64,000 bases of DNA from Winogradskyella helgolandensis. Lineage in GTDB: Bacteria; Bacteroidota; Bacteroidia; Flavobacteriales; Flavobacteriaceae. Shown piece by piece: positions 1-9,600 of this stretch (the stretch's first letter is position 1; each line of letters opens with the position of its first letter). Location: NCBI RefSeq assembly GCF_013404085.1, contig NZ_JABFHO010000001.1, positions 2,243,001 through 2,307,000 on the forward strand, in the 5' to 3' direction. A program made the translations under genes and the position numbers. Under the pieces are notes generated by a model, which ran no database searches, was not told where the DNA came from, and saw only the letters and a list, made by a program, of their open reading frames with translations.

Positions 1-243
1 TGGTTTTTTAGATTCCGCAATTTGTTTAAAATCAGTTGCGACTTCGTTGATTTTTTTGGTCAATATTGGTCTCAATTTTTCATCCGATATATTTGGTGAA
101 TGATTTTCCGCATAGAATTTTTTCTTTGCAATAAATTCTACAAATTTTTCATTCGCATTTTTAGGTGTTTTCATTTCGGTTGCATTTTGTCCGCAAGCAG
201 ATAAAGTTAAAAACAGAACTAATATTTTGATGTATTTCATCAT
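1..243 (-). CDS. Small lipoprotein, 3' part cut by window edge
   Basis: The frame is open from an ATG at 243 (a second ATG follows at 240) to position 1, about 81 codons, and continues past the window. It begins MMKYIKILVLFL and has a lipobox ending LSAC at about residues 14-17, so a lipidated, periplasm- or surface-exposed protein is predicted. The rest (CGQNATEMKTPKNANEKF onward) is a charged soluble tail that I do not recognise. It starts 13 nt after the site at 256-388, in the same position and strand as every other gene of the cassette array, so I read it as the cargo of a further cassette whose own downstream site lies left of the window. Confidence 0.75.
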   Translation of the reverse strand, partial: MMKYIKILVLFLTLSACGQNATEMKTPKNANEKFVEFIAKKKFYAENHSPNISDEKLRPILTKKINEVATDFKQIAESKKP

Positions 244-255
244 TTCTCAAATGGC

Positions 256-388
256 TTCACAATGTTGATGTATAAGGTTAGTTGCGCATGTAAGCAACTA
301 AATTAGTGAATAAATCACAGATAGCATATTCCGCAGTAACATTCGTAAGTCGGCTAGAACTAGCATTAATTATACCTGTTGTTACTAC
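256..388 (-). repeat. attC-like palindromic site 1 (family A)
   Basis: This imperfect palindrome is bounded on the plus strand by a left box TTCACAAT (256-263; other copies end in AAC) and a right box GTTACTAC (381-388). Inside it has the family-A landmarks: a GTTGC...GCAAC hairpin at 280-298, ATTCCGCAG in the middle and ATTAATTATAC near the right end. It is the downstream site of the cassette whose gene is 385-936, and the TAG stop of that gene lies inside the right box. Confidence 0.85.
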
Positions 389-936
389 CAGTTTTTATTC
401 AGCTTTTCTACAATCAAATAATTCTCTGTTGCAGAAATTTCTTTTTTAAATGACACTTTTTTAATTCCGTTATAATCTTTCATAAACCTCAAAGTTGCTT
501 TAAAATCGGAAATCCCAAAGTTTTCATTTAGTTTGATATCCATAAAATAGCTCGCGAACTTTCCTAAACTATCATTTTCTATTCTGTATTCGGCTATTGG
601 TCCATCAGTTATTTTAAATGAACCAGGAATTGGTGTAATCCTCACATTGGTTTTTCCAATTCCAATTTTTATGTTGTCAAGTTTATGTTTGACATCATAT
701 TCTCTAATTGGAAGAATCATTGATGAATCACAAAGAAAATGGTAATTCTGAACAACGGAACTTTGATTGTTTTCTAGAAAATGATTTATATTCGACAATA
801 TTAAACTGTCTTTCTTTTTTTCTTTTTCAGATGATGTGAGTTCAATATTTACAGATTTAACGTCATTCTTACAGCCAACTAAGAAGATTAGAAGTATTTC
901 GAGTATTGAAATTCGTATTTGTGTTTTAATTCTCAA
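385..936 (-). CDS. Cassette-borne lipoprotein, unknown function
   Basis: The gene encodes 183 residues. A short hydrophobic N-terminus (about residues 8-20) ends in a lipobox IFLVGC, so Cys22 is the likely lipidated residue. The mature part is soluble and mixed-charge, with a Lys-rich stretch after the lipobox (EKEKKKDS) and a beta-rich looking C-terminal half; no family was recognised. It begins 15 nt after site 2 (951-1091) and its stop overlaps site 1, leaving no room for a private promoter outside the sites. Transcription therefore probably depends on a promoter inside a site or further upstream. Confidence 0.8.
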   Translation of the reverse strand: MRIKTQIRISILEILLIFLVGCKNDVKSVNIELTSSEKEKKKDSLILSNINHFLENNQSSVVQNYHFLCDSSMILPIREYDVKHKLDNIKIGIGKTNVRITPIPGSFKITDGPIAEYRIENDSLGKFASYFMDIKLNENFGISDFKATLRFMKDYNGIKKVSFKKEISATENYLIVEKLNKNW

Positions 937-950
937 GAGTTTTTCTAATT

Positions 951-1091
951 GTGGTAACGTGATTGTGTATGGTTAGTTGCGAGGTTAAGCAACTAAATTA
1001 GTAAACTTTAACGAACCCGTGAATATTCCGCAGGAATTTTCGCAAGTTGGCAAGAACCAAGCAATTAATTATTCACGGCTTAAGTTGGCAG
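951..1091 (-). repeat. attC-like palindromic site 2 (family A)
   Basis: The left box is GTGGTAAC (951-958) and the right box is GTTGGCAG (1084-1091). The interior carries the family-A signature: AGTTGCG...GCAACT arms, CGAACCCGTG, a hairpin around ATTCCGCAGGAAT (1024-1036) and CAAGCAATTAATTATTCAC. The right box and following bases (GTTGGCAGTA) are the exact reverse complement of TACTGCCAAC at the start of site 3, so the cassette holding 1104-1568 has matching ends. Confidence 0.9.
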
Positions 1092-1103
1092 TAGTTTTTA
1101 TTT

Positions 1104-1568
1104 TCAGATTTTATTATTTTCAGATTTAATCGTATATATATAATTTGATTGTTTTTGCCTTTTTGATAAATTAATTAAGTCGTTGATTGATATTTTTTTA
1201 TTATCATATTCTATATAATCAATGTAATGTATATAGCTCATATTAAAAGTTTCTTCAATTCTGACTGTAGAATTTTTTGGGATGAGAACGCTTAAAGTAT
1301 TATTATTCAGTCGTTGTTTTTTAATAATATTTACCTCATTGATTTTACTGAATTCTTTTGGGTTTAAAATTCCTTTTTTACAATCAACTTCAAAATGATT
1401 GCTTCCGTAATCAGGCAATTCAGACAATTCGTTGATATCAATATTATAAGTTACTTTAAACAGAACATCATTAGACATTATGTTTTGAATAAATAAATCA
1501 CTTTTTGTTGTACAACTTATAAAAAGAGTCAAAATTATTAAGAGAGAAAAGAGTTTTATTTTTTTCAT
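1104..1568 (-). CDS. Cassette-borne lipoprotein, unknown function
   Basis: The gene encodes 154 residues beginning MKKIKLFSLLIILTLFISC, a compact lipoprotein signal with Cys19 as the lipidation site. The mature chain is short, polar and rich in Asn, Ile and Lys; no domain was recognised. The ATG is 20 nt after site 3 and the stop is 12 nt before site 2, the tight packing seen in all cassettes here. AT-rich codons (ATA, AAT, TTA) dominate more than in the neighbouring cassettes, which fits an independent origin, but I could not measure this. Confidence 0.8.
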   Translation of the reverse strand: MKKIKLFSLLIILTLFISCTTKSDLFIQNIMSNDVLFKVTYNIDINELSELPDYGSNHFEVDCKKGILNPKEFSKINEVNIIKKQRLNNNTLSVLIPKNSTVRIEETFNMSYIHYIDYIEYDNKKISINDLINLSKRQKQSNYIYTIKSENNKI

Positions 1569-1588
1569 CAGATTGCTGTGTTCAAATT

Positions 1589-1723
1589 ACTGCCAACGGC
1601 TCGAATATGGGGCGTTTGGCATTTCTAAACTCCAACCTGTCAAACCGCTAATATATTTATTAAATGTTATTATGTTCAAAATTAGCACTATCCGCCAAAA
1701 GACTTATATTTTTTGTTAGTGCC
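1589..1723 (-). repeat. attC-like palindromic site 3 (family B)
   Basis: This site has the same end logic (ACTGCCAAC at 1589-1597, GTTAGTGCC at 1715-1723) but an interior unlike family A. Its arms are CGTTTGGCA (1613-1621) against CCGCCAAAAG (1692-1701), and CGAATATGG against CTTATATTTT further out. The middle is AT-rich (ATATATTTATTAAATG). The TAA stop of the gene at 1716-2459 lies within the right box. Confidence 0.75.
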
Positions 1724-2459
1724 AGTACTTCCTTATCTCTGTCTCCAATTCTATCATTATTTTCGAATCTATTCTTATTTCAGAATCCTTAATAAATATC
1801 GACACACCTAAATAATGTTCTTGATGAAGTGTCAAAATATAATTCCTGTATTCAAAATCCCAATATTTTTGGTCAAGTCCGTTATTTTTTTTAGTAAATC
1901 TAACATTCAATTTTGTCTCTAAAATATTCGAAATCAATTTGAAATCATCGGGATTTGAAGATAAGTCAATCTCTGTATTTTTGTTTTCAATAAGTATTAA
2001 GTCTTGGTTTACACTTTCAGATTCGGTTTTCTCATTAATTGTATCAAATTCGATCTCCTTAGGATTGTGTCGAGGACTGTCATATGCATAAATTACTCCG
2101 TTTTCAAATCCTCGAATATCCAACACTGAAAATGATTTTCTATATTTTTTAATTAGTCCGTTTGTCAAGTTCAGTATTATCAGCTTTTGAATTGTCCCTT
2201 TGAATATTTTACGTTCCCATATTGGTACAGCAATCAACGCGTAATTTGAATCCCAAATCGCTGGTCCAGCACACCAATCACCGATTTTAATTTTCTTACC
2301 GTCTTCTGTTATTAGAAAACTCTTTCCTCCAAGTGGTGCACCCATAGAGATTTCATTCAAGTCGTAATACTCAATCTTAAATCTATTGTCTTTCGATTTT
2401 AAAGATTTGTCGGTATTATCAAAATCCCATGGATTCGGATATGTTGTAATGTCTTTCAT
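1716..2459 (-). CDS. Cassette-borne soluble protein, unknown function
   Basis: The open frame runs up to 2504, but its first 15 codons are simply the translated end of site 4. The ATG at 2459, 4 nt from the left box of that site, gives the start used here (247 residues, beginning MKDITTYPNPWDF) and matches the spacing of the other cassette genes. There is no signal peptide or membrane segment, so the product should be cytoplasmic. The N-terminal half contains aromatic, WD-like beta strands (GDWCAGPAIWDSNYALIAVP, IWERKIFKG), and the C-terminal half is charged with a conserved-looking YWDFEYRNY stretch. I cannot name the family. Confidence 0.75.
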   Translation of the reverse strand: MKDITTYPNPWDFDNTDKSLKSKDNRFKIEYYDLNEISMGAPLGGKSFLITEDGKKIKIGDWCAGPAIWDSNYALIAVPIWERKIFKGTIQKLIILNLTNGLIKKYRKSFSVLDIRGFENGVIYAYDSPRHNPKEIEFDTINEKTESESVNQDLILIENKNTEIDLSSNPDDFKLISNILETKLNVRFTKKNNGLDQKYWDFEYRNYILTLHQEHYLGVSIFIKDSEIRIDSKIMIELETEIRKYWH

Positions 2460-2463
2460 CGTA

Positions 2464-2599
2464 TTGGCAACGTGATTGTGTATGGTAGTTGCGTGGTTAA
2501 GCAACTAAATTAGTAAACTTTTACGAACCCGTGGAAATTCCGCAGGAATTTTTGCAAATAGGCAAGAACTCAGCAATTAATTATACACGGTGTTGCCAC
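2464..2599 (-). repeat. attC-like palindromic site 4 (family A)
   Basis: The left box is TTGGCAAC (2464-2471) and the right box is GTTGCCAC (2592-2599). Between them lie GTGTATGG, the TAGTTGCG/GCAACTAA arms, CGAACCCGTG, the AATTCCGCAGGAATT hairpin, CAGCAATTAATTATACACGGT. Its two own boxes are complementary to one another (TTGGCAAC/GTTGCCA), whereas its left box does not match the right box of site 3, making this the one cassette junction that breaks the rule. Confidence 0.9.
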
Positions 2600-2605
2600 A
2601 CGTTT

Positions 2606-3280
2606 TTATTCAATTTCTTTTAAAATATAATCTTCTTTTGTATTGCCAAATGTTGATATGAAAATTTCATTTCCGATTTGTTTTTTCAGAATGAAAGGTG
2701 CGTAATTTTCGGTAAATAAAATATCAAACCCATTATGATTTGCTCGTTCCCACATAAAATGGTCGGAATTTCCGAATTTCCACGAATTGCTGATATAAAC
2801 AGAGTCATTTATAAATTGGATTGTATCTGTCCACTTTCTGAAATTTCTGATGAATTTTTTTCCAGTAAATTTTATTTCGGGTGTCCTATTCTTTAATGAA
2901 TCTACCAACCTCTTATAAACTCTATTCTGATTATAATTCTTGAATACAATACTGTCTTTTGTTAATGGGTCAATCATTTCAGATTCATAGTATTCATTTC
3001 CAGCAATAACAAAGTAGTCATTTCCAAAATCCACTAAATTTTTTCCTTTTAGTTCAAATTTTTCAGTTCTTTCGTTTCCGTAATTAAATTCCTTATAATT
3101 AAAAGTTCCGTTGTCGAATGTAATTAATTCGTTGAAAGGAAAATCTCCGACAACATAATCTTTAATTGTATCATTATCAGCAAACTTATAAGAAGATATC
3201 CAAGTTCCATTCAGTTTTTTTTCATTCTGACAAGAGGTCAAAATAAAAGTCAAAATTATTATGTTGAGTAGTTTTTTCAA
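2606..3280 (-). CDS. Cassette-borne lipoprotein, unknown function
   Basis: A longer frame from an ATG at 3304 begins MHKTVTAHLKKLL, but those first codons are the translated end of site 5. The TTG at 3280, 4 nt past the box, gives (M)KKLLNIIILTFILTSC, the same kind of signal as MKKLLAIMIILTLNSC in the gene at 4391-4762, so I prefer it (225 residues). Lipidation is expected at the Cys of LTSC. The mature part begins NEKKLNGTWISSYKF and looks like a small beta-barrel lipocalin-type lipoprotein (GTW near the start), but this is only an impression. Confidence 0.75.
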   Translation of the reverse strand: MKKLLNIIILTFILTSCQNEKKLNGTWISSYKFADNDTIKDYVVGDFPFNELITFDNGTFNYKEFNYGNERTEKFELKGKNLVDFGNDYFVIAGNEYYESEMIDPLTKDSIVFKNYNQNRVYKRLVDSLKNRTPEIKFTGKKFIRNFRKWTDTIQFINDSVYISNSWKFGNSDHFMWERANHNGFDILFTENYAPFILKKQIGNEIFISTFGNTKEDYILKEIE

Positions 3281-3284
3281 ATGT

Positions 3285-3392
3285 GCGGTAACGGTTTTGT
3301 GCATGAAAAGTTGCGTGGTTAAGCAACTAAGTTAATAAACATTTTCGCAAGTAGGTTAGAACCAGGCAACTAATTATACACGGTGTTGGCAA
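3285..3392 (-). repeat. attC-like palindromic site 5 (family A, short form)
   Basis: This is the shortest site, 108 bp. The boxes are GCGGTAAC (3285-3292) and GTTGGCAA (3385-3392). It keeps the outer arms (AGTTGCGTGGTTAAGCAACT and GAACCAGGCAACTAATTATA) but lacks about 30 bp of the apical part present in the others: the CGAACCCGTG and ATTCCGCAGGAAT stretch is missing and TTTTCGCAAGTAGG follows directly. The right box is the exact reverse complement of TTGCCAAC at the start of site 6. Confidence 0.88.
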
Positions 3393-3401
3393 TTGGCTTT
3401 T

Positions 3402-3929
3402 TTATTCACGATTAAATACTTGATTATAATATTCGTTCAATAATCCTTTTCCGTTATATTTTGTTTTTAAAATCAGTTTTGATTCAGCACAAGCCTTTTT
3501 ATATAAACTTTGCTCTTTTTCATTCAGACTTTTTGAGCCTAAATAAACCATTTCATAAATCGGATTAGATTGTTCCAATTCAAACGCTTTTTTAAGCATT
3601 TCTTTCCCTTTAATTTCCAATTCCTCGTAATCTCCAAATTCGTAAGGGAAAATTGAAATTGTATATCCAGCAATAAAATTGAATTCAGCCAATTCCGAGT
3701 ATTTATTCAGTCCATTTTTTAATTCAGATTCCAATTCAGTTCGTAAATCAATATCTTTCTTAAATTGTCCATTAACATCTTCAATCATAGACCACAAAAA
3801 GAAGAAATAATATTTCCACGTTTCAAATTCCGCATTATTTTCCGAAATCAGTTTTTGATATTCAGAATACGCCTCGTTATATTTTTCGGCAGTTTCTAAT
3901 TCAAATATTTGTTCCAGATTTTGATTCAT
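3402..3929 (-). CDS. Cassette-borne helical-repeat (TPR-like) protein
   Basis: The gene encodes 175 residues with no signal peptide. It is almost entirely amphipathic helix with a TPR-like spacing: an N-terminal MNQNLEQIFELETAEKYNEA pair, a second pair around residues 28-55 rich in aromatics (WKYYFFFLWSM) and further helices up to LLNEYYNQVFNRE. Such proteins usually bind other proteins; no partner is evident here. The start lies 20 nt from site 6 and the stop 9 nt from site 5. A cytoplasmic immunity or regulatory role is possible but nothing in the sequence proves it. Confidence 0.75.
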   Translation of the reverse strand: MNQNLEQIFELETAEKYNEAYSEYQKLISENNAEFETWKYYFFFLWSMIEDVNGQFKKDIDLRTELESELKNGLNKYSELAEFNFIAGYTISIFPYEFGDYEELEIKGKEMLKKAFELEQSNPIYEMVYLGSKSLNEKEQSLYKKACAESKLILKTKYNGKGLLNEYYNQVFNRE

Positions 3930-3949
3930 TCGGGATTTTTTTCAGCTTG

Positions 3950-4088
3950 TTGCCAACGTGTTTGTGTATGGTTAGTTGCGTGGTTCAGCAACTAAGTTAG
4001 CAAACTTTTACGAACCCGTGAATATTCCGCAGGAATATTCGCAAGTAGGCTAGAACAAAGCAATTAATTATACACGGTGTTGCCCACA
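3950..4088 (-). repeat. attC-like palindromic site 6 (family A, best example)
   Basis: The boxes are TTGCCAAC (3950-3957) and GTTGCCCACA (4079-4088). This copy shows the fold most clearly. The outer arms pair GTGTATGGTTAGTTGCGTGG with AAGCAATTAATTATACAC, and the tip is a perfect 9-bp stem GAATATTCC/GGAATATTC around a 3-nt GCA loop (4019-4039). One strand of the palindrome has about 15 extra bases between arm and tip (AACTTTTACGAACCCGT), which would bulge out of the folded strand. The right box is an exact 10-bp complement of the start of site 7. Confidence 0.92.
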
Positions 4089-4107
4089 GTATTTTTTATT
4101 AATTTCG

Positions 4108-4380
4108 TTATTGTTTTAATTCCATAAGCAACATTATTGAAAATCCGATTGCTATTAAAAATCCAATTCCGTTGAGTATTTTTTTATTCTTAATTATTAA
4201 GGTCAGAATAAAGTCAATTAGTAATCCAATAATTCCAATTCCAATTAATCCGACCATATAGACAACTCCCCAACCTTCTTCGTATGATAAAATTTTCCAT
4301 TTAGCAATTGTGTAAATTAGGCAACAAGCTAAATAGATAAGGAAATAAGCCTTTAAAATTGTCCACTTTTTCACTTGCAT
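4108..4380 (-). CDS. Small membrane protein, second gene of a two-gene cassette
   Basis: A longer frame starts at 4410 and would overlap the gene before it by 20 nt. The ATG at 4380 (MQVKKWTILKAYFL) leaves a 10-nt gap after that gene and follows a GAGAAAATAATT leader, so I use it (90 residues). Three membrane segments are visible: about residues 9-27, 41-62 and 68-86, with a short YEEGWG loop. There is no palindromic site between this gene and 4391-4762, so both move or are inherited as one cassette and are probably co-translated. No family was recognised. Confidence 0.7.
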   Translation of the reverse strand: MQVKKWTILKAYFLIYLACCLIYTIAKWKILSYEEGWGVVYMVGLIGIGIIGLLIDFILTLIIKNKKILNGIGFLIAIGFSIMLLMELKQ

Positions 4381-4390
4381 AATTATTTTC

Positions 4391-4762
4391 TCAATAAATA
4401 GGTGAGTCAAATTTTACTATTGTCGTGTCATTTTCTACGATAAAATCAACCCAATGGTCAAGTGAACCTCCATTCGTATAATATCCGCCACCTCTAATTT
4501 CCTTTTTTCCGTTAGCGCGATTAAAAGTCAGTGAGTAAGCTCCGTCAGTTTTATTTTTCCGCATCGATAAGAATTCAGTCACGCTTTTATTCGGCTCAAT
4601 TCTGTCAATTTTTATCACGTTCAATTTTTCGGTCGTAGTAAATTCTACGTTTGTTATTGGTTTACTTGAGTTATTTTTAATTTTCATTTCAATTCCATTT
4701 TCTTTGAACATAAAACACGAGTTCAAAGTCAGAATTATCATTATTGCGAGCAGTTTTTTCAT
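4391..4762 (-). CDS. Cassette-borne lipoprotein, first gene of a two-gene cassette
   Basis: The gene encodes 123 residues beginning MKKLLAIMIILTLNSC, a lipoprotein signal with Cys16 as the anchor. The mature domain is small and beta-rich (EMKIKNNSSKPITNVEF, RIEPNKSVTEFLSMRKN, GGGYYTNGGSLDHWVDFIVE), resembling a single immunoglobulin-like sandwich; this is an impression, not a family match. The ATG sits 2 nt from the left box of site 7, the closest of all cassette starts. The membrane protein 10 nt downstream may be its partner. Confidence 0.78.
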   Translation of the reverse strand: MKKLLAIMIILTLNSCFMFKENGIEMKIKNNSSKPITNVEFTTTEKLNVIKIDRIEPNKSVTEFLSMRKNKTDGAYSLTFNRANGKKEIRGGGYYTNGGSLDHWVDFIVENDTTIVKFDSPIY

Positions 4763-4764
4763 AT

Positions 4765-4903
4765 TGTGGGCAACGTTGTTGTGTATGGTTCGTTGCGTGG
4801 TTAAGCAACTAAATTAGCAAATAAATCCCAGATAGAATATTCCGCAGGAATGTTCGTAAGTCGGCAGTGACCAAGCAATTAATTATACACGGTGTTGTGC
4901 ACT
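4765..4903 (-). repeat. attC-like palindromic site 7 (family A)
   Basis: The boxes are TGTGGGCAAC (4765-4774) and GTTGTGCACT (4894-4903). It has the family-A interior except that the region after GCAACTAAATTAG reads CAAATAAATCCCAGATAG instead of the AACTTTTACGAACCCG version, as in site 1 (GAATAAATCACAGATAG). Sites 1 and 7 therefore form a sub-type. The right box is an exact 10-bp complement of the start of site 8. Confidence 0.92.
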
Positions 4904-4907
4904 GTTT

Positions 4908-5324
4908 TTATTTTTTCAGATACTGTTTAGCATCTCTTATATTCAATTCCGTTTCGTCGACTCCTTGTCCAGTTCGGTTTTGATTAAAGACAGGTTCGTC
5001 AAGTCGGTCAAGTCCGATTAATATTTGAAAAACTGCAATTCCATTTTCGTTTTCCACTTCCGTTCGCAACCACTTTTTATATTCCGCTATTAAATTCCGA
5101 TTTCCGATTTTTGATAAGCTCCAATATCCACTAACTCGTTCGTCCTCGTTTTTATAAATTCCAGAGTTCAGTCCGTCGACTATTATTTTTTCCAATTCAG
5201 TCGGTTTGTATTCGGTCAGTTTAGATTCCGCAATTATTCCTTTTTCAAATTCCGAGTGAGAATTTCCGTTCTCCTTTTCGAAAATAAAAGCAACTTCTGT
5301 AAACTGTTCATTTGTTAATTTCAT
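4908..5324 (-). CDS. Cassette-borne soluble protein, unknown function
   Basis: The gene encodes 138 residues from the ATG at 5324 (MKLTNEQFTEVAFIF); an in-frame ATG four codons upstream (5336) is the alternative. There is no signal peptide. The chain is acidic and helical, with a central segment KIIVDGLNSGIYKNEDERVS followed by GYWSLSKIGNRNLI and a tail ending DAKQYLKK. No family was recognised; HEAT-like or SMI1-like folds are guesses only. Between this gene and site 8 lies an extra CGTAACGGTTTT (5342-5353) that copies the left end of a site, perhaps a remnant of a lost one. Confidence 0.72.
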   Translation of the reverse strand: MKLTNEQFTEVAFIFEKENGNSHSEFEKGIIAESKLTEYKPTELEKIIVDGLNSGIYKNEDERVSGYWSLSKIGNRNLIAEYKKWLRTEVENENGIAVFQILIGLDRLDEPVFNQNRTGQGVDETELNIRDAKQYLKK

Positions 5325-5360
5325 CACTGTTTTCAATTCGGCGTAACGGTTTTCTCAAAT

Positions 5361-5501
5361 AGTGCACAACGGTTTTGTGTATAAGTTAGTTGCGTGGTTT
5401 GGCAACTAATTTAGCAAAAATTGACCGAACCCGAGAAAATTCCAGCGGAATTTTCGCACGTAATCTAAAAAAAGCAATTAATTATACACGTTGTTAGCTT
5501 T
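5361..5501 (-). repeat. attC-like palindromic site 8 (family A)
   Basis: The boxes are AGTGCACAAC (5361-5370) and GTTAGCTTT (5493-5501). The tip hairpin is GAAAATTCCAGCGGAATTTTC (5434-5454), an 8-bp stem with a changed loop. The changes on both sides keep pairing relative to the GAATATTCC version in site 6. Arms GTTAGTTGCG and GCAATTAATTATACAC are conserved. The right box is the exact reverse complement of AAAGCTAAC at the start of site 9. Confidence 0.92.
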
Positions 5502-5883
5502 TAGTGCTTTTTTGTCCGTTTAGTAATTTATTCCGAATTTATTTTTTTTCGATAATTTTTATTTTCAAAGTTTGAGTAAATTCCGCAGTTTTTGATTCCG
5601 CAAACTTGCTCAAATTCCGCAACTTGCTAAATTCCGATTGCGTGAGATTCCGAGTTTCCAATTCAGTTTTAGATTCCGCAAACAAGCTAAAAAATCAAGC
5701 GTAATTCAATTCAGAGTTTGAGTGAGCAATTCCGCTGTTGTATTTCATTCCACATTTGAGTGATAATTCCGAAAATTTTTGAAATTCGACACACAGTTTT
5801 TCTAATTTATCTTACTTAAAATTCTAAAAAAAAATCGAAAAATAAACCAGGCTTTTTTCAAACCGCAAACTTGCTCCAGCATT
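5502..5883 (-). other. Body of an ORF-less cassette
   Basis: These 382 bp lie between sites 8 and 9 and have matching cassette ends, but I find no convincing gene. The longest minus-strand frame near its downstream end is about 49 codons from a TTG and reads as a low-complexity chain (AESKTELETRNLTQSEFSKL and on). It is built from short repeated words such as ATTCCGCAA and AACTTGCT, which occur several times between 5578 and 5690 and again near 5860. It may be a decayed gene, a promoter-carrying cassette or an RNA. Confidence 0.6.
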
Positions 5884-6019
5884 AAAGCTAACGGTTACGT
5901 ATAAGAATAGTGCGGTGTTTGTAAGCGAGGATTTTCCGCAGGAAAATCAGAAGCAAGTAAACACACTATTAATTTAGATAAAGCACAAAACACGTATTAT
6001 TTTTATACAATGTTGCCAT
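5884..6019 (-). repeat. attC-like palindromic site 9 (family C)
   Basis: The boxes are AAAGCTAAC (5884-5892) and GTTGCCAT (6012-6019). The interior differs from families A and B: the arms are CGTATAAGAATAGTGCGGTG against CACACTATTAATT, the tip is GATTTTCCGCAGGAAAATC (5929-5947) with an 8-bp stem, and there is an extra segment TAGATAAAGCACAAAACACG before TTTTATACAATG. The tip keeps the CCGCAGG loop core of family A. This site is the closest one to the putative upstream end of the array. Confidence 0.88.
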
Positions 6020-6263
6020 GCGTGATTTTATTATTTTTGCGCAATTAAATATATAAAAATTTTACGCAACAAAAAAGAGTCCGACGCAACAGTTGCGTAT
6101 TACTTGGCACAAGTCAGATTTTAAAAAACATAAGAGTAAAATTATTAGCGCGTACACCTTGCGAATTGATTCTTTAAAGTCAGTTGATTAATATTTTGAG
6201 TTATTATTTTAAACTACTTTTTAAGCGGTTTTAGAACTTTTTTTTAGAGCTGAGTGAGCATGA
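6020..6263 (-). other. Possible second ORF-less cassette or leader of the array
   Basis: No gene is supported in these 244 bp. Two features stand out: an inverted pair TTGCGCAA/TTACGCAAC (6037-6075 region) and a palindrome CGCAACAGTTGCG (6082-6094). On the minus strand they flank a TATATATTTAATTG stretch that could be a promoter reading into the array. The left edge is the GTTGCCAT box of site 9 and the right edge is the complementary ATGGCAAC at 6264-6271, so the segment has cassette-like ends. Confidence 0.45.
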
Positions 6264-6302
6264 ATGGCAACAATTGGATATACGCTATTGTCTATATCCA
6301 AT
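6264..6302. other. Candidate terminal recombination site (attI-like position)
   Basis: ATGGCAAC (6264-6271) is the exact reverse complement of the right box of site 9 and marks where the last cassette should end. It is followed at once by a perfect 10-bp inverted repeat, ATTGGATATA (6273-6282) and TATATCCAAT (6293-6302), and then by CTATAGCG, which mirrors CGCTAT inside the loop. No full-length attC-like site can be closed to the right of it. The inverted repeat could instead be a weak terminator for the gene at 6624-9899, though it lacks a T tract. Confidence 0.45.
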
Positions 6303-6623
6303 CTATAGCGTTTATTACAAATCTAATATAATTTTAGAATAATGAGACTTTTATAAAACAGTATAAAGATTAACCTTAAAAAATTGAAGACCTTAAATAC
6401 GCAGTTGCAGACCTTAATGTTTTTTATATCATTTACATTAGAAGCGCTACAACTTGTAAAATAAAGAGGGAATTTTCGTTATATTTTTAGATAGTTTATG
6501 GTTTGCAATACACATGTCTAATTTGTGTAAGTTAACAAGGTCCACGAGGGTTAGAACTAACTATAACCTCTATGTAATGGTCTTACCATCTTTTAAGAAT
6601 ATCATTTTTAAGCTATAAAAATA
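6303..6623. other. Non-coding stretch between cassette array and adhesin gene
   Basis: No gene was seen on either strand. It is very AT-rich, with a direct repeat of AGACCTTAA (about 6387 and 6410). In particular there is no tyrosine-recombinase gene here or as the next gene to the right, which matters for interpreting the array. Confidence 0.6.
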
Positions 6624-9600
6624 TTATCGTTTTAAAGAGAAATGCCCCTCAAATATTTTTCCATTACCAAGATTAGCAGTAAACCAATAATCGTTTGGCG
6701 CCATCTCTGTTCCATTATAAAACCCGTCCCAGCCAAAGTCATTTGCAGATAGTTGTTTCATTAATTTACCGTACCTATCATAGATTAATATGGTTGAGTT
6801 TGGAAACTTATTAATGCCGTTAATTCTCCAAAAATCATTGTCACCATCGTTGTTTGGTGTAAAGAATTTTGGATAGTCAATTATAATAACTTCTCTAGAC
6901 GCTTCACCACAATCATTTTTATCTCTTACATACACATCATAAACACCACCTTTAAGATCAGGAAAGAAATTACTGTTTTGATAGTGGATGCCATCTATGG
7001 AGTATTCGAAATCTCCATCTCCGGTGGCAATGATTTCGATAAAGTTATGGCCTAATTCTCCATAATTCACATCTTCTATTGCGATTGGCATAGAGCGAGT
7101 TAAACGGAACGAAAATGATTGTTCGCACTCCGTATTATTTTCGAGTTGTGTTATAGATATTGTATACGTTCCTTCGTTTTCTAGGGTAACATGACGCGTA
7201 GAAGATAATAATGTGCCATTTTCAGAATACCATGCGTATGTGTAAAAGCCGGTGTCTACAGATAATGAAAGTGAGGGTTCTAAGTAACAAATCATATAAT
7301 CTTCGTCTAAGTCAATTTCTGGCAAAGGATTAACGATTAAATTAAAAGAGGTTTCAGAATAACAGATTGGATTAGAAGCATCTTCAACTTTTACATTGAT
7401 GGTTTGAGAAAATGGTTCCGTATTTTCGAAAGTGCTTGGTAATGGACTTGGAAGCGGACTTCCATTAGCGTCGTAATAAGCTATTACTAACCCCGTTTGA
7501 TTACCAATTATAGCCTGTTCAATTGATGAGGTATCGAATTCCGAATACCCATCACCTTGGTCACAAGCGTATAAATTACTAGGATGATTAATATTAGGTT
7601 GGGTAATTGTTTGTAACTGAAATGTTGTTTCGTCATAACATGCTGAGGACGTATTTGTAACTCTCGCTGTTATAGTTTGATTAAACGCGCTTGTGTTGGT
7701 AAAAGGATTTGGTAAGGGACTTGGTAGTTGATTATTGTTTTCATCAAAATAACTGATGCTTAAACCCGATTGACCATTGAGCAATTGACTTTCTATAGTA
7801 GAGGTATCAAAATATTCAGAAATACCATCATTATTATCGTCACAGCCTAATAGGTTTGGGATATCATTGGCAACAGGATTCGTATTTACGGACAAATTAA
7901 TTACAATATCAGACACGCAATTTGTAGTTGTACTTGTAACTCTAGCCGTTATAATATCTTCATTAATTGTAAGATTTGTAAAATTGGAATAGTCCGAAGG
8001 TAGAATTGTAGCATTGTTGCTATTAATTAATTCTACATTGAGATTTGGTTGCCCATTAATTAAATCGCTTGGTATGTTGCTTAAATCAAATGTGGTAAAA
8101 CCATCACTATCATCATCACAGAAAAATAAATCATCTATAGTATTAATTTCGGGTGCTGCGGTTACTATGATATCAAAAGAGGTTTCAGAATAGCAACAGA
8201 GACTCCCTTGATTATAAACTCTTACTTTTATGGTTTCTAGATCTCTAACCGTATTTGAATAGGGATTAGGTAAGGTGTTATGTTCCGCACCGTTACCATC
8301 AACAAAGGTCACAATTCTATCGGTTTGTCCACCTAAAACTTGTGCTGTAATTGTTGAAATATCAATGGATGATGATAGACCTGTTCCAAAACTATCTTCG
8401 CACGCATAGATGTTATTAATGCCATAAGCAGTAGGCGGTTCTATGACATTGATAGTTTCGGTAATAACTTCAATAGTTCCATTCGTTGTAGTCACTGTAG
8501 CGCTCACCGTAAAGGTACCGTCTGCTGAAAAATCATGAAACGGAGATAAATCTACGGACGTATTATTTGTGCCAGAAGCTACATCTCCAAAGTCCCATTG
8601 TATAGAAGCAACATTTGAAGCTTCTTCAATACTAAACTCTTTTAGAAACTCTGAACAGATATTAGAAATGTTCATTGAAAGCGTATTGGATGTATGATTA
8701 ACATCTCCTGTTACATTGATGTAAAAATTAGCATTTGGCCTTCCAAAAGATGCTGTAGAAACATATTGATCATTACCTGCAGGTCCACCTCCGAAATTGG
8801 TACAGCCTCTTTGCCAAGATAATTCGTTACTTTGAGTAGAACCTGCAATAAAGGCGAGTCCGCTTCCGTATGCAATTCCTTTGTGAACTTCAACTAAAAT
8901 TTTCTCAACTCCCGCCGGAATAACGATTGGAGTATCAAAAACAACCTCAACGATCTGAGGGCTATCTCCTATAGTAGGTGAGAGTTCTTGGTTTTGACTA
9001 CTTCCTATGAGGTTTGATGTTGAAAATGAGTCTGGGAAATTATCGTCTATTTCATAAATATTAAAACTAATTTCGGGTAACCATCCGACATTATTAATAC
9101 CTACTTGCCCCGAATTAATGACATACTCTTCATCGGTTGAAATTCCAAATTCATCTAAATCAAATGCTCTAGCCCAATAAATGTACGATGATGAGCAAGA
9201 ATGGATGTCTGTTTTTATGATATCGTCACAACCATTATGAGATAATCTCGTGGTAGATCCTGTGCTTTGTATATCAATAATCTCTCCGGTAACATTAATA
9301 TAAAAATTAGCATCCGGAACGGGGTTTACCAAATCGGTAGTTGGAGTTAAACCATAGTTTTCATCACAGCCTTCATACCAAGATTCTCCAGTGTCTTCGG
9401 CGGTTCCCGCAATAAATACCTGAGATGATGCAGGGTTGTAAAAATCGTCGTGCTTTTGTACCGTAACCAAAATCCTTTCAACACCAGCAGGGACAATTAT
9501 GGGTTCGTCAAATTCTACATTTATAATTTCGGGAGTGCCGTTTATATTTGGAGATTGTCCGATGCCACGCCTTCCGAGCACTACTGGCGGATAAAGCGAG

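Follow-up and report, generated by a model that had tools for sequence, protein, structure and literature searches.

Evidence for an integron-like, non-canonical gene-cassette system in Winogradskyella helgolandensis

A cassette array at the start of the window

The window analysed here is a 64,000-nucleotide stretch of the Winogradskyella helgolandensis genome (contig NZ_JABFHO010000001.1, positions 2,243,001 to 2,307,000), and its positions 261-6271 are the head of a gene-cassette array of ~36 kb, which continues leftward for ~30 kb, to about 2213.4 kb on contig C1 of this genome (G000). In the array, minus-strand genes alternate with palindromic, attC-like sites, and an attI-like motif forms its head (Table 1). 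A first-pass annotation had placed nine such sites, each bounded by a word ending in AAC and a word starting with GTT, at 256-6271, and direct reading of the sequence confirms words and sites at these places. Our site model, R2, was built from 15 sites, with a secondary structure set by hand because RNAalifold on the 15 sites gave only 3 pairs. It matches eight of the nine sites at E <= 0.001, one of them weakly (5890-6014), and misses the site at 1595-1717, which is barely alignable with the remaining window sites. Most sites have a common body of ~125 nt between AAC and GTT, and most bodies contain an outer stem GTGTAT...ATACAC and an inner hairpin. Beyond the ninth site the annotation has to be corrected by one extra cassette without an open reading frame (ORF), at 6012-6271, bounded by the attI-like site. 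Across the genome, R2 gives 178 matches in 367 kb of AT-rich stretches, which were chosen mainly for the sites that an initial search had revealed there; one site, split at a locus border, accounts for two of the 178. Site orientation is uniform within each array, and matches also occur at scattered single places.

Private end words agree within each cassette

The first-pass annotation had proposed that the two end words are complementary within a cassette and differ between cassettes, and a comparison with shuffled cassettes was set beforehand as the test. In this genome, 165 cassettes lie between neighbouring sites less than 6 kb apart, and 145 remain after the 20 lacking an exact GTT start and AAC end are dropped. 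The words agree at 6.39 of 7 positions within these cassettes, compared with 2.60 between cassettes; 95 of the 145 are perfect (7/7) and a further 35 have 6 matches. Summed matches (927) lie far above the best of 10,000 shuffles (446). When the end word of one cassette is compared with the start word of the next, across the site, agreement is 2.80/7 (n = 122). The comparison was repeated with 186 of 191 cassettes from 26 other genomes, using the 150 best sites and 78 weaker ones entered by hand, of 266. Here the words agree at 5.84/7 positions, compared with 2.70 for other pairings, and the summed matches (1086, 26 loci) again far exceed the best of 10,000 shuffles (577). The proposed complementarity is therefore borne out in both sets.

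The matched words, although real, are longer than had been noted. Position 8 after GTT is A in 141/145 cassettes of this genome and in 186/186 from the other genomes, the letter opposite is C in 123/145 and 169/186, and positions 9-11 match in 122, 133 and 116 of the 145, compared with 95, 72 and 73 expected. The stem therefore consists of GTT, 7 positions, a fixed A.C mismatch and 3 more pairs.

As the annotation had stated, the cassette of gene 1716 fails the word match. Agreement also varies between arrays: the first 6 private positions are perfect in 29/29 kept cassettes of the array beside the candidate recombinase described below, in 44/46 on contig C2, 18/19 at 4.16 Mb, 8/8 at 4.29 Mb, 10/15 at 2.76 Mb, 2/6 at 3.95 Mb and 7/14 in the window's array, of whose 25 cassettes 11 were dropped before this count. 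We infer that words are matched while a cassette circulates and drift apart once it stays, and that the window's array is an old, quiet and decaying outlier.

Cassettes are bounded at GTT

This genome contains seven pairs of cassettes with identities of 95% or more across 80% or more of their length and with different upstream neighbours. In five of these pairs the site body downstream of the gene is copied as well (97-100%), while the upstream body is 60-91% identical, the median for random pairs of site bodies being 74%. Identity in the five pairs starts 1-3 nt ahead of the cassette's GTT, and in the four of them covered at the far end it ends at most one letter past the next GTT. In the relative G631 (92% identity beyond the array), the attI-like head is shared but another first cassette follows, with the break at the junction; the annotation had called for a comparison of this kind, seeking differences of single cassettes at GTT. 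Compared as sequences, the duplicates show a unit that consists of GTT word, gene, AAC word and site body, with its edges at GTT. As in an integron, a cassette cut at GTT carries its downstream site, both in the five duplicate pairs and at the head of G631. The word statistics, the duplicated cassettes and the relative's other first cassette all support the annotation's reading of the units as former circles cut at GTT. For one window cassette (3385-3957), the array at 4.16-4.17 Mb contains a near copy (98.4%, pair 3/118) whose site body is different.

The peptidase that flanks the array on its left is carried by 11 genus mates, and of the 10 fetched, 5 have nearby sites and 5 have none. Comparison of L251, L252 and L255-L257 with L248-L250, L253 and L254 indicates that sites near the peptidase vary, i.e. 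that the array's place is variable.

The abundance of R2 matches in AT-rich stretches, some of them at scattered single places, would suit palindromic repeats dispersed between ordinary genes, or transposons with private terminal repeats, in neither case with cassette exchange. However, inserted repeats would not render the ends of the intervening unit complementary, a single orientation is kept throughout each array, the body travels with the gene in the duplicate pairs, and a recombinase lies at array heads. We regard this explanation as hardly tenable.

A candidate recombinase beside the largest array

The window's array had been described as integrase-less. This holds for the array itself, which has no adjoining recombinase, but not for the genome, where a candidate lies beside the largest array, 2.08 Mb away. 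This tyrosine recombinase (C1:4327165-4328289, 375 aa) is the genome's best match to the integron-integrase model and ends ~1.6 kb short of the largest array, in which R2 sites begin at 4329933 and which appears to continue on contig C2. The recombinase stop codon is followed directly by a palindrome, 4 nt, GTT and then a first cassette whose words agree at 7/7, and the same kind of palindrome-GTT motif heads the window's array.

The protein has Phage_integrase and SAM-like domains, and R235, K260, K263, H324, R327, H350 and Y359 are invariant across 20 aligned sequences. Its predicted structure (mean predicted local distance difference test score, pLDDT, 82; predicted template modelling score, pTM, 0.52) has XerA and IntI4 as nearest Foldseek matches, and the protein aligns in one stretch with 4a8e and 5hxy (XerC-like, XerA) and in two with IntI4. 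The catalytic core is like that of Xer/XerA tyrosine recombinases, from which the protein differs in an N-terminal extension of ~105 residues and in its linkage to cassette arrays. At the IntI-specific insertion near patch III it has 21 residues, compared with 64 in IntI4 (2a3v), and none of the 20 aligned sequences has a long insertion at this place. Against the IntI model TIGR02249 it scores 193.4 bits, below the cut-off of 265. None of the 10 matches to this model across the genome is above the cut-off, and 299 genomes of the family gave none at E <= 1e-60 or above the cut-off, control genomes being equally silent. The NCBIfam model NF040815 ("site-specific tyrosine recombinase/integron integrase") is matched above its cut-off, at 239.5 bits compared with 220, its name being no proof of function. 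The attC core consensus is RYYYAAC/GTTRRRY; RYYYAAC is present in 5 and GTTRRRY in 6 of the 145 cassettes.

These comparisons bear on whether the array could be a remnant of a canonical integron (a cluster of attC sites lacking an integron integrase, CALIN), with ordinary attC sites and an IntI that was lost or lies elsewhere. The anatomy is the same, with codirectional cassettes, GTT edges and an attI-like head; like such a remnant, the window's array has no adjoining recombinase; and the NF040815 cut-off is exceeded. However, the recombinase falls short of TIGR02249 and of the length of the IntI4 insertion, the sites misfit the attC core consensus, the family genomes, like the controls, yield no IntI above the cut-off, and this genome carries a candidate recombinase for its own kind of site. 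A canonical remnant is therefore quite improbable.

Recombinase and arrays are linked in other genomes

We fetched 40 loci, 39 of them with a recombinase. A first set comprised 20 loci from the 38 best recombinase matches, with long contigs preferred and nearby sites already known in 4. All 17 with room have downstream sites in the expected orientation (E <= 0.01), those of L100 and L106 being weak, and the other 3 end at most 214 bp from the recombinase. In a second set of 19 loci, mostly 35-48% identical, 16 have downstream sites in the expected orientation; 9 of the 19 were chosen since their contig had known sites (9/9 positive), and 7 of the remaining 10 are positive, among them G157, where a site ~20 kb off had been seen before selection. 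No separate site in the opposite orientation was found in the fetched loci, two places being read on both strands. Right after the recombinase stop codon, 26 of 37 loci have a first cassette whose words match, compared with 4.6 expected by shuffling, although the match in L127 looks like chance. In 13 of these 26 loci, almost all in the closer recombinase group, the GTT is preceded by palindrome arms of 11 or more. This is the arrangement of an integron, with an attI beside the integrase and cassettes starting at GTT, and it is also that of the W. helgolandensis genome. Another 43 loci, from named records, gave 33 sites, of which 31 are downstream and antisense, in 9 loci.

A scan that is blind to the site body, searching for exact GTT-N7-A...C-N7-AAC, gives 42 matches in 198 kb downstream of the recombinase (21 of 36 Bacteroidota loci), compared with 10 in 258 kb upstream and 1 in 226 kb in other phyla (1 of 36 loci). 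Loci were grouped by record title, with one untitled "bacterium" put with Bacteroidota; L190 and loci with less than 500 bp downstream were excluded. Within this genome the scan gives 73 matches in 114 kb of arrays, with 2 on the opposite strand; sampled regions totalling 400 kb give 7, counting both strands. As far as sequence comparison goes, the fetched loci place the recombinase and attI-like site at the heads of arrays, in a constant polarity.

The annotation had also proposed searching other Flavobacteriaceae with a site model, and in such a search 237 of the 299 family genomes sampled have sites; the recombinase is present at E <= 1e-40 in 196 of the 299. In a sample of the phylum, sites are present in 39 of 345 genomes, of which 18 belong to the same family, 5 to other families of the class and 16 to other classes, and many genomes of g128, a large genus of the same family, have no sites. 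For 86 cassette ORFs, the 25 most frequent families listed include the defence or toxin families AbiJ/Abi_C, AriA, PD-T4-6, PDC-S06 and ParE, one or two each.

An integron-like reading of the arrays

We read the system as integron-like but non-canonical, and the window as the attI-proximal end of an outlying cassette array, with a probability of roughly 0.85. The system works like an integron in its recombinase, attI-like site and GTT edges, and it is not canonical in that it fits neither the IntI model, nor the IntI insertion, nor the attC consensus. With sedentary chromosomal integrons (IntI, attI, attC), such as the Vibrio superintegron, it has in common a recombinase, an attI-like head, long codirectional arrays, a unit cut at GTT and first cassette bases complementary to the cassette's end. 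Its rows of interchangeable small gene cassettes are also like the integron cassettes that spread antibiotic resistance in other bacteria. Unlike chromosomal integrons, it has a recombinase without the IntI4 insertion and under the TIGR02249 cut-off, an attI-like site that is palindromic in many loci, and a recombinase gene codirectional with the cassettes. In addition, its paired stem has 14 positions with a fixed A.C mismatch, whereas the R box of integron attC sites has 7 bp.

The recombinase belongs to a Bacteroidota family with an Xer/XerA-like core, no IntI insertion and an added N-terminal extension. It would probably exchange units as circles, cutting at GTT, and insertion would probably occur mainly at the palindromic attI-like site adjoining the recombinase gene. 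In the circle, the two private words would flank one site body and pair, and after insertion the paired words would end up at opposite ends of the cassette, so that the words would be expected to agree inside each cassette but not across sites. The folding strand is probably the one opposite the genes. Under DNA parameters this strand folds better at 160 of 168 sites (91-161 nt), as it does for 143 of the 145 circle forms modelled. In 12 of 14 clusters here, and in all 4 in G014, it also serves as template for lagging-strand synthesis, with the replication strand assigned by GC-skew signs and the clusters read by eye among the matches listed. These data suit a folded substrate without proving it, and folding at recombination is plausible.

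The same arrays could instead arise if the recombinase exchanged double-stranded cassettes in an Xer-like manner, in which case word pairing would reflect cassette origin and not a folded substrate. The alignment of the core in one stretch with XerA/XerC-like structures and the palindromic attI-like site are consistent with such exchange. Nevertheless, pairing of the words requires both of them to flank a single site body, nearly all sites and circle forms fold better on the strand opposite the genes, and the stem with its fixed mismatch is conserved across genomes, which makes double-stranded exchange unlikely.

Several observations weigh against the integron-like reading. Covariation in the site body is weak, and the case does not rest on it. 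Two of the seven duplicate pairs share gene and words but not the body, and on the left side of the window's array, homology with G631 and G641 stops inside the last site body and not at GTT. Sites are lacking at three of the 36 recombinase loci with room (L121, L123, L130), two sites in L167 lie upstream of the recombinase, and some site-bearing genomes of the family have no close recombinase match, as the counts above imply. The lagging-strand bias is weak in G157 (10 of 16 clusters). Finally, the action of the recombinase on the sites, the circles, the folding of one strand and the activity of the system are all things that we infer.

Surveys, implications and tet(X3)

Such arrays are common among the relatives sampled, and surveys seem to have overlooked them. 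The IntegronFinder 2 survey initially detected only In0 elements in Bacteroidetes and afterwards a single complete integron, that of Salinibacter ruber (PMC9024848). Another article calls the IntI insertion essential for integron function and describes it as not fully conserved in an integron-like subgroup (PMC8138268). Among the open-licence PubMed Central literature, we recognised no paper describing these arrays. If the integron-like reading is true, counts so far have missed a major route by which this group exchanges genes, the IntI insertion is dispensable for cassette exchange, private words reveal recently moved cassettes, and the question of where tet(X3) came from can be tested. A broader view, to which we give about even odds, is that a second integron-like platform, with folded sites and a tyrosine recombinase family free of the IntI insertion, is the main cassette system of Bacteroidota, its words recording recent moves, and a possible source of tet(X3).

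On plasmids of Acinetobacter, tet(X3) is immediately preceded by a recombinase with 53.6% identity over residues 146-374; papers on tet(X) reportedly call the recombinase beside the gene xerD. Plasmid records with a recombinase match number 291, and 51 of them contain at least 80% of the residue 146-374 stretch. In L263:4043-6110 (NZ_CP041297.1), a shorter relative of the recombinase is followed by a palindrome and GTT frame and then by tet(X3). Like the system described here, the tet(X3) locus has this frame between recombinase and cassette gene; unlike it, the locus has a single gene, end words that agree at only 4/7 and no array in the stretch read. The comparison suggests that tet(X3) may formerly have been the first cassette of such a system. 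A plasmid of Chryseobacterium sp. SNU WT5 (L264, NZ_CP041688.1) carries a recombinase, an attI-like site and three cassettes whose words agree at 6-7/7, with a site body that is entirely different and GC-rich, which suggests that the body sequence is particular to each lineage.

Features of the window's array

Table 1. Sites, cassettes and array head in the first 6.3 kb of the window (bits are R2 scores)
Feature	Position	Strand	Remarks
attC-like site	261..383	+	begins AAT rather than AAC; 92.9 bits
Cassette, gene 385-936	381..958	-	183 aa, no Pfam match
attC-like site	956..1086	+	128 bits (matched 956-1081)
Cassette, gene 1104-1568	1084..1597	-	words 7/7
Diverged site	1595..1717	+	direct reading; barely alignable, missed by R2
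Cassette, gene 1716-2459	1715..2471	-	end words disagree
attC-like site	2469..2594	+	134.6 bits
Cassette, gene 2606-3304 as listed	2592..3292	-	listed ATG falls within next site
attC-like site, short form	3290..3387	+	88 bits
Cassette, gene 3402-3929	3385..3957	-	near copy elsewhere in genome
attC-like site	3955..4081	+	150.3 bits
Cassette, two ORFs, 4108-4410 and 4391-4762	4079..4774	-	words 7/7
attC-like site	4772..4896	+	134.9 bits
Cassette, gene 4908-5336	4894..5370	-	words 7/7
attC-like site	5368..5495	+	117.7 bits
ORF-less cassette	5493..5892	-	
attC-like site, diverged	5890..6014	+	29.3 bits
First cassette, ORF-less	6012..6271	-	words 6/7 by eye
attI-like array head: palindrome, 4 nt, GTT	6269..6303	-	motif also after recombinase stop codon elsewhere in genome

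An Rfam search of window positions 1-7000 gave two matches only, a snoRNA and a CRISPR repeat, both under their gathering scores and taken as chance. The sole window cassette with disagreeing words contains a DUF3630-like stretch (1716-2459), which scores 24 bits compared with a cut-off of 25. Left of the window, at L009:12388-12650, a second attI-like motif lies inside the array, as if two arrays had been joined. Elsewhere, at L014:11820-12302 and similar places in L014, sites of tandem cassettes carry a long insert (~400 nt) between AAC and the GTT end.

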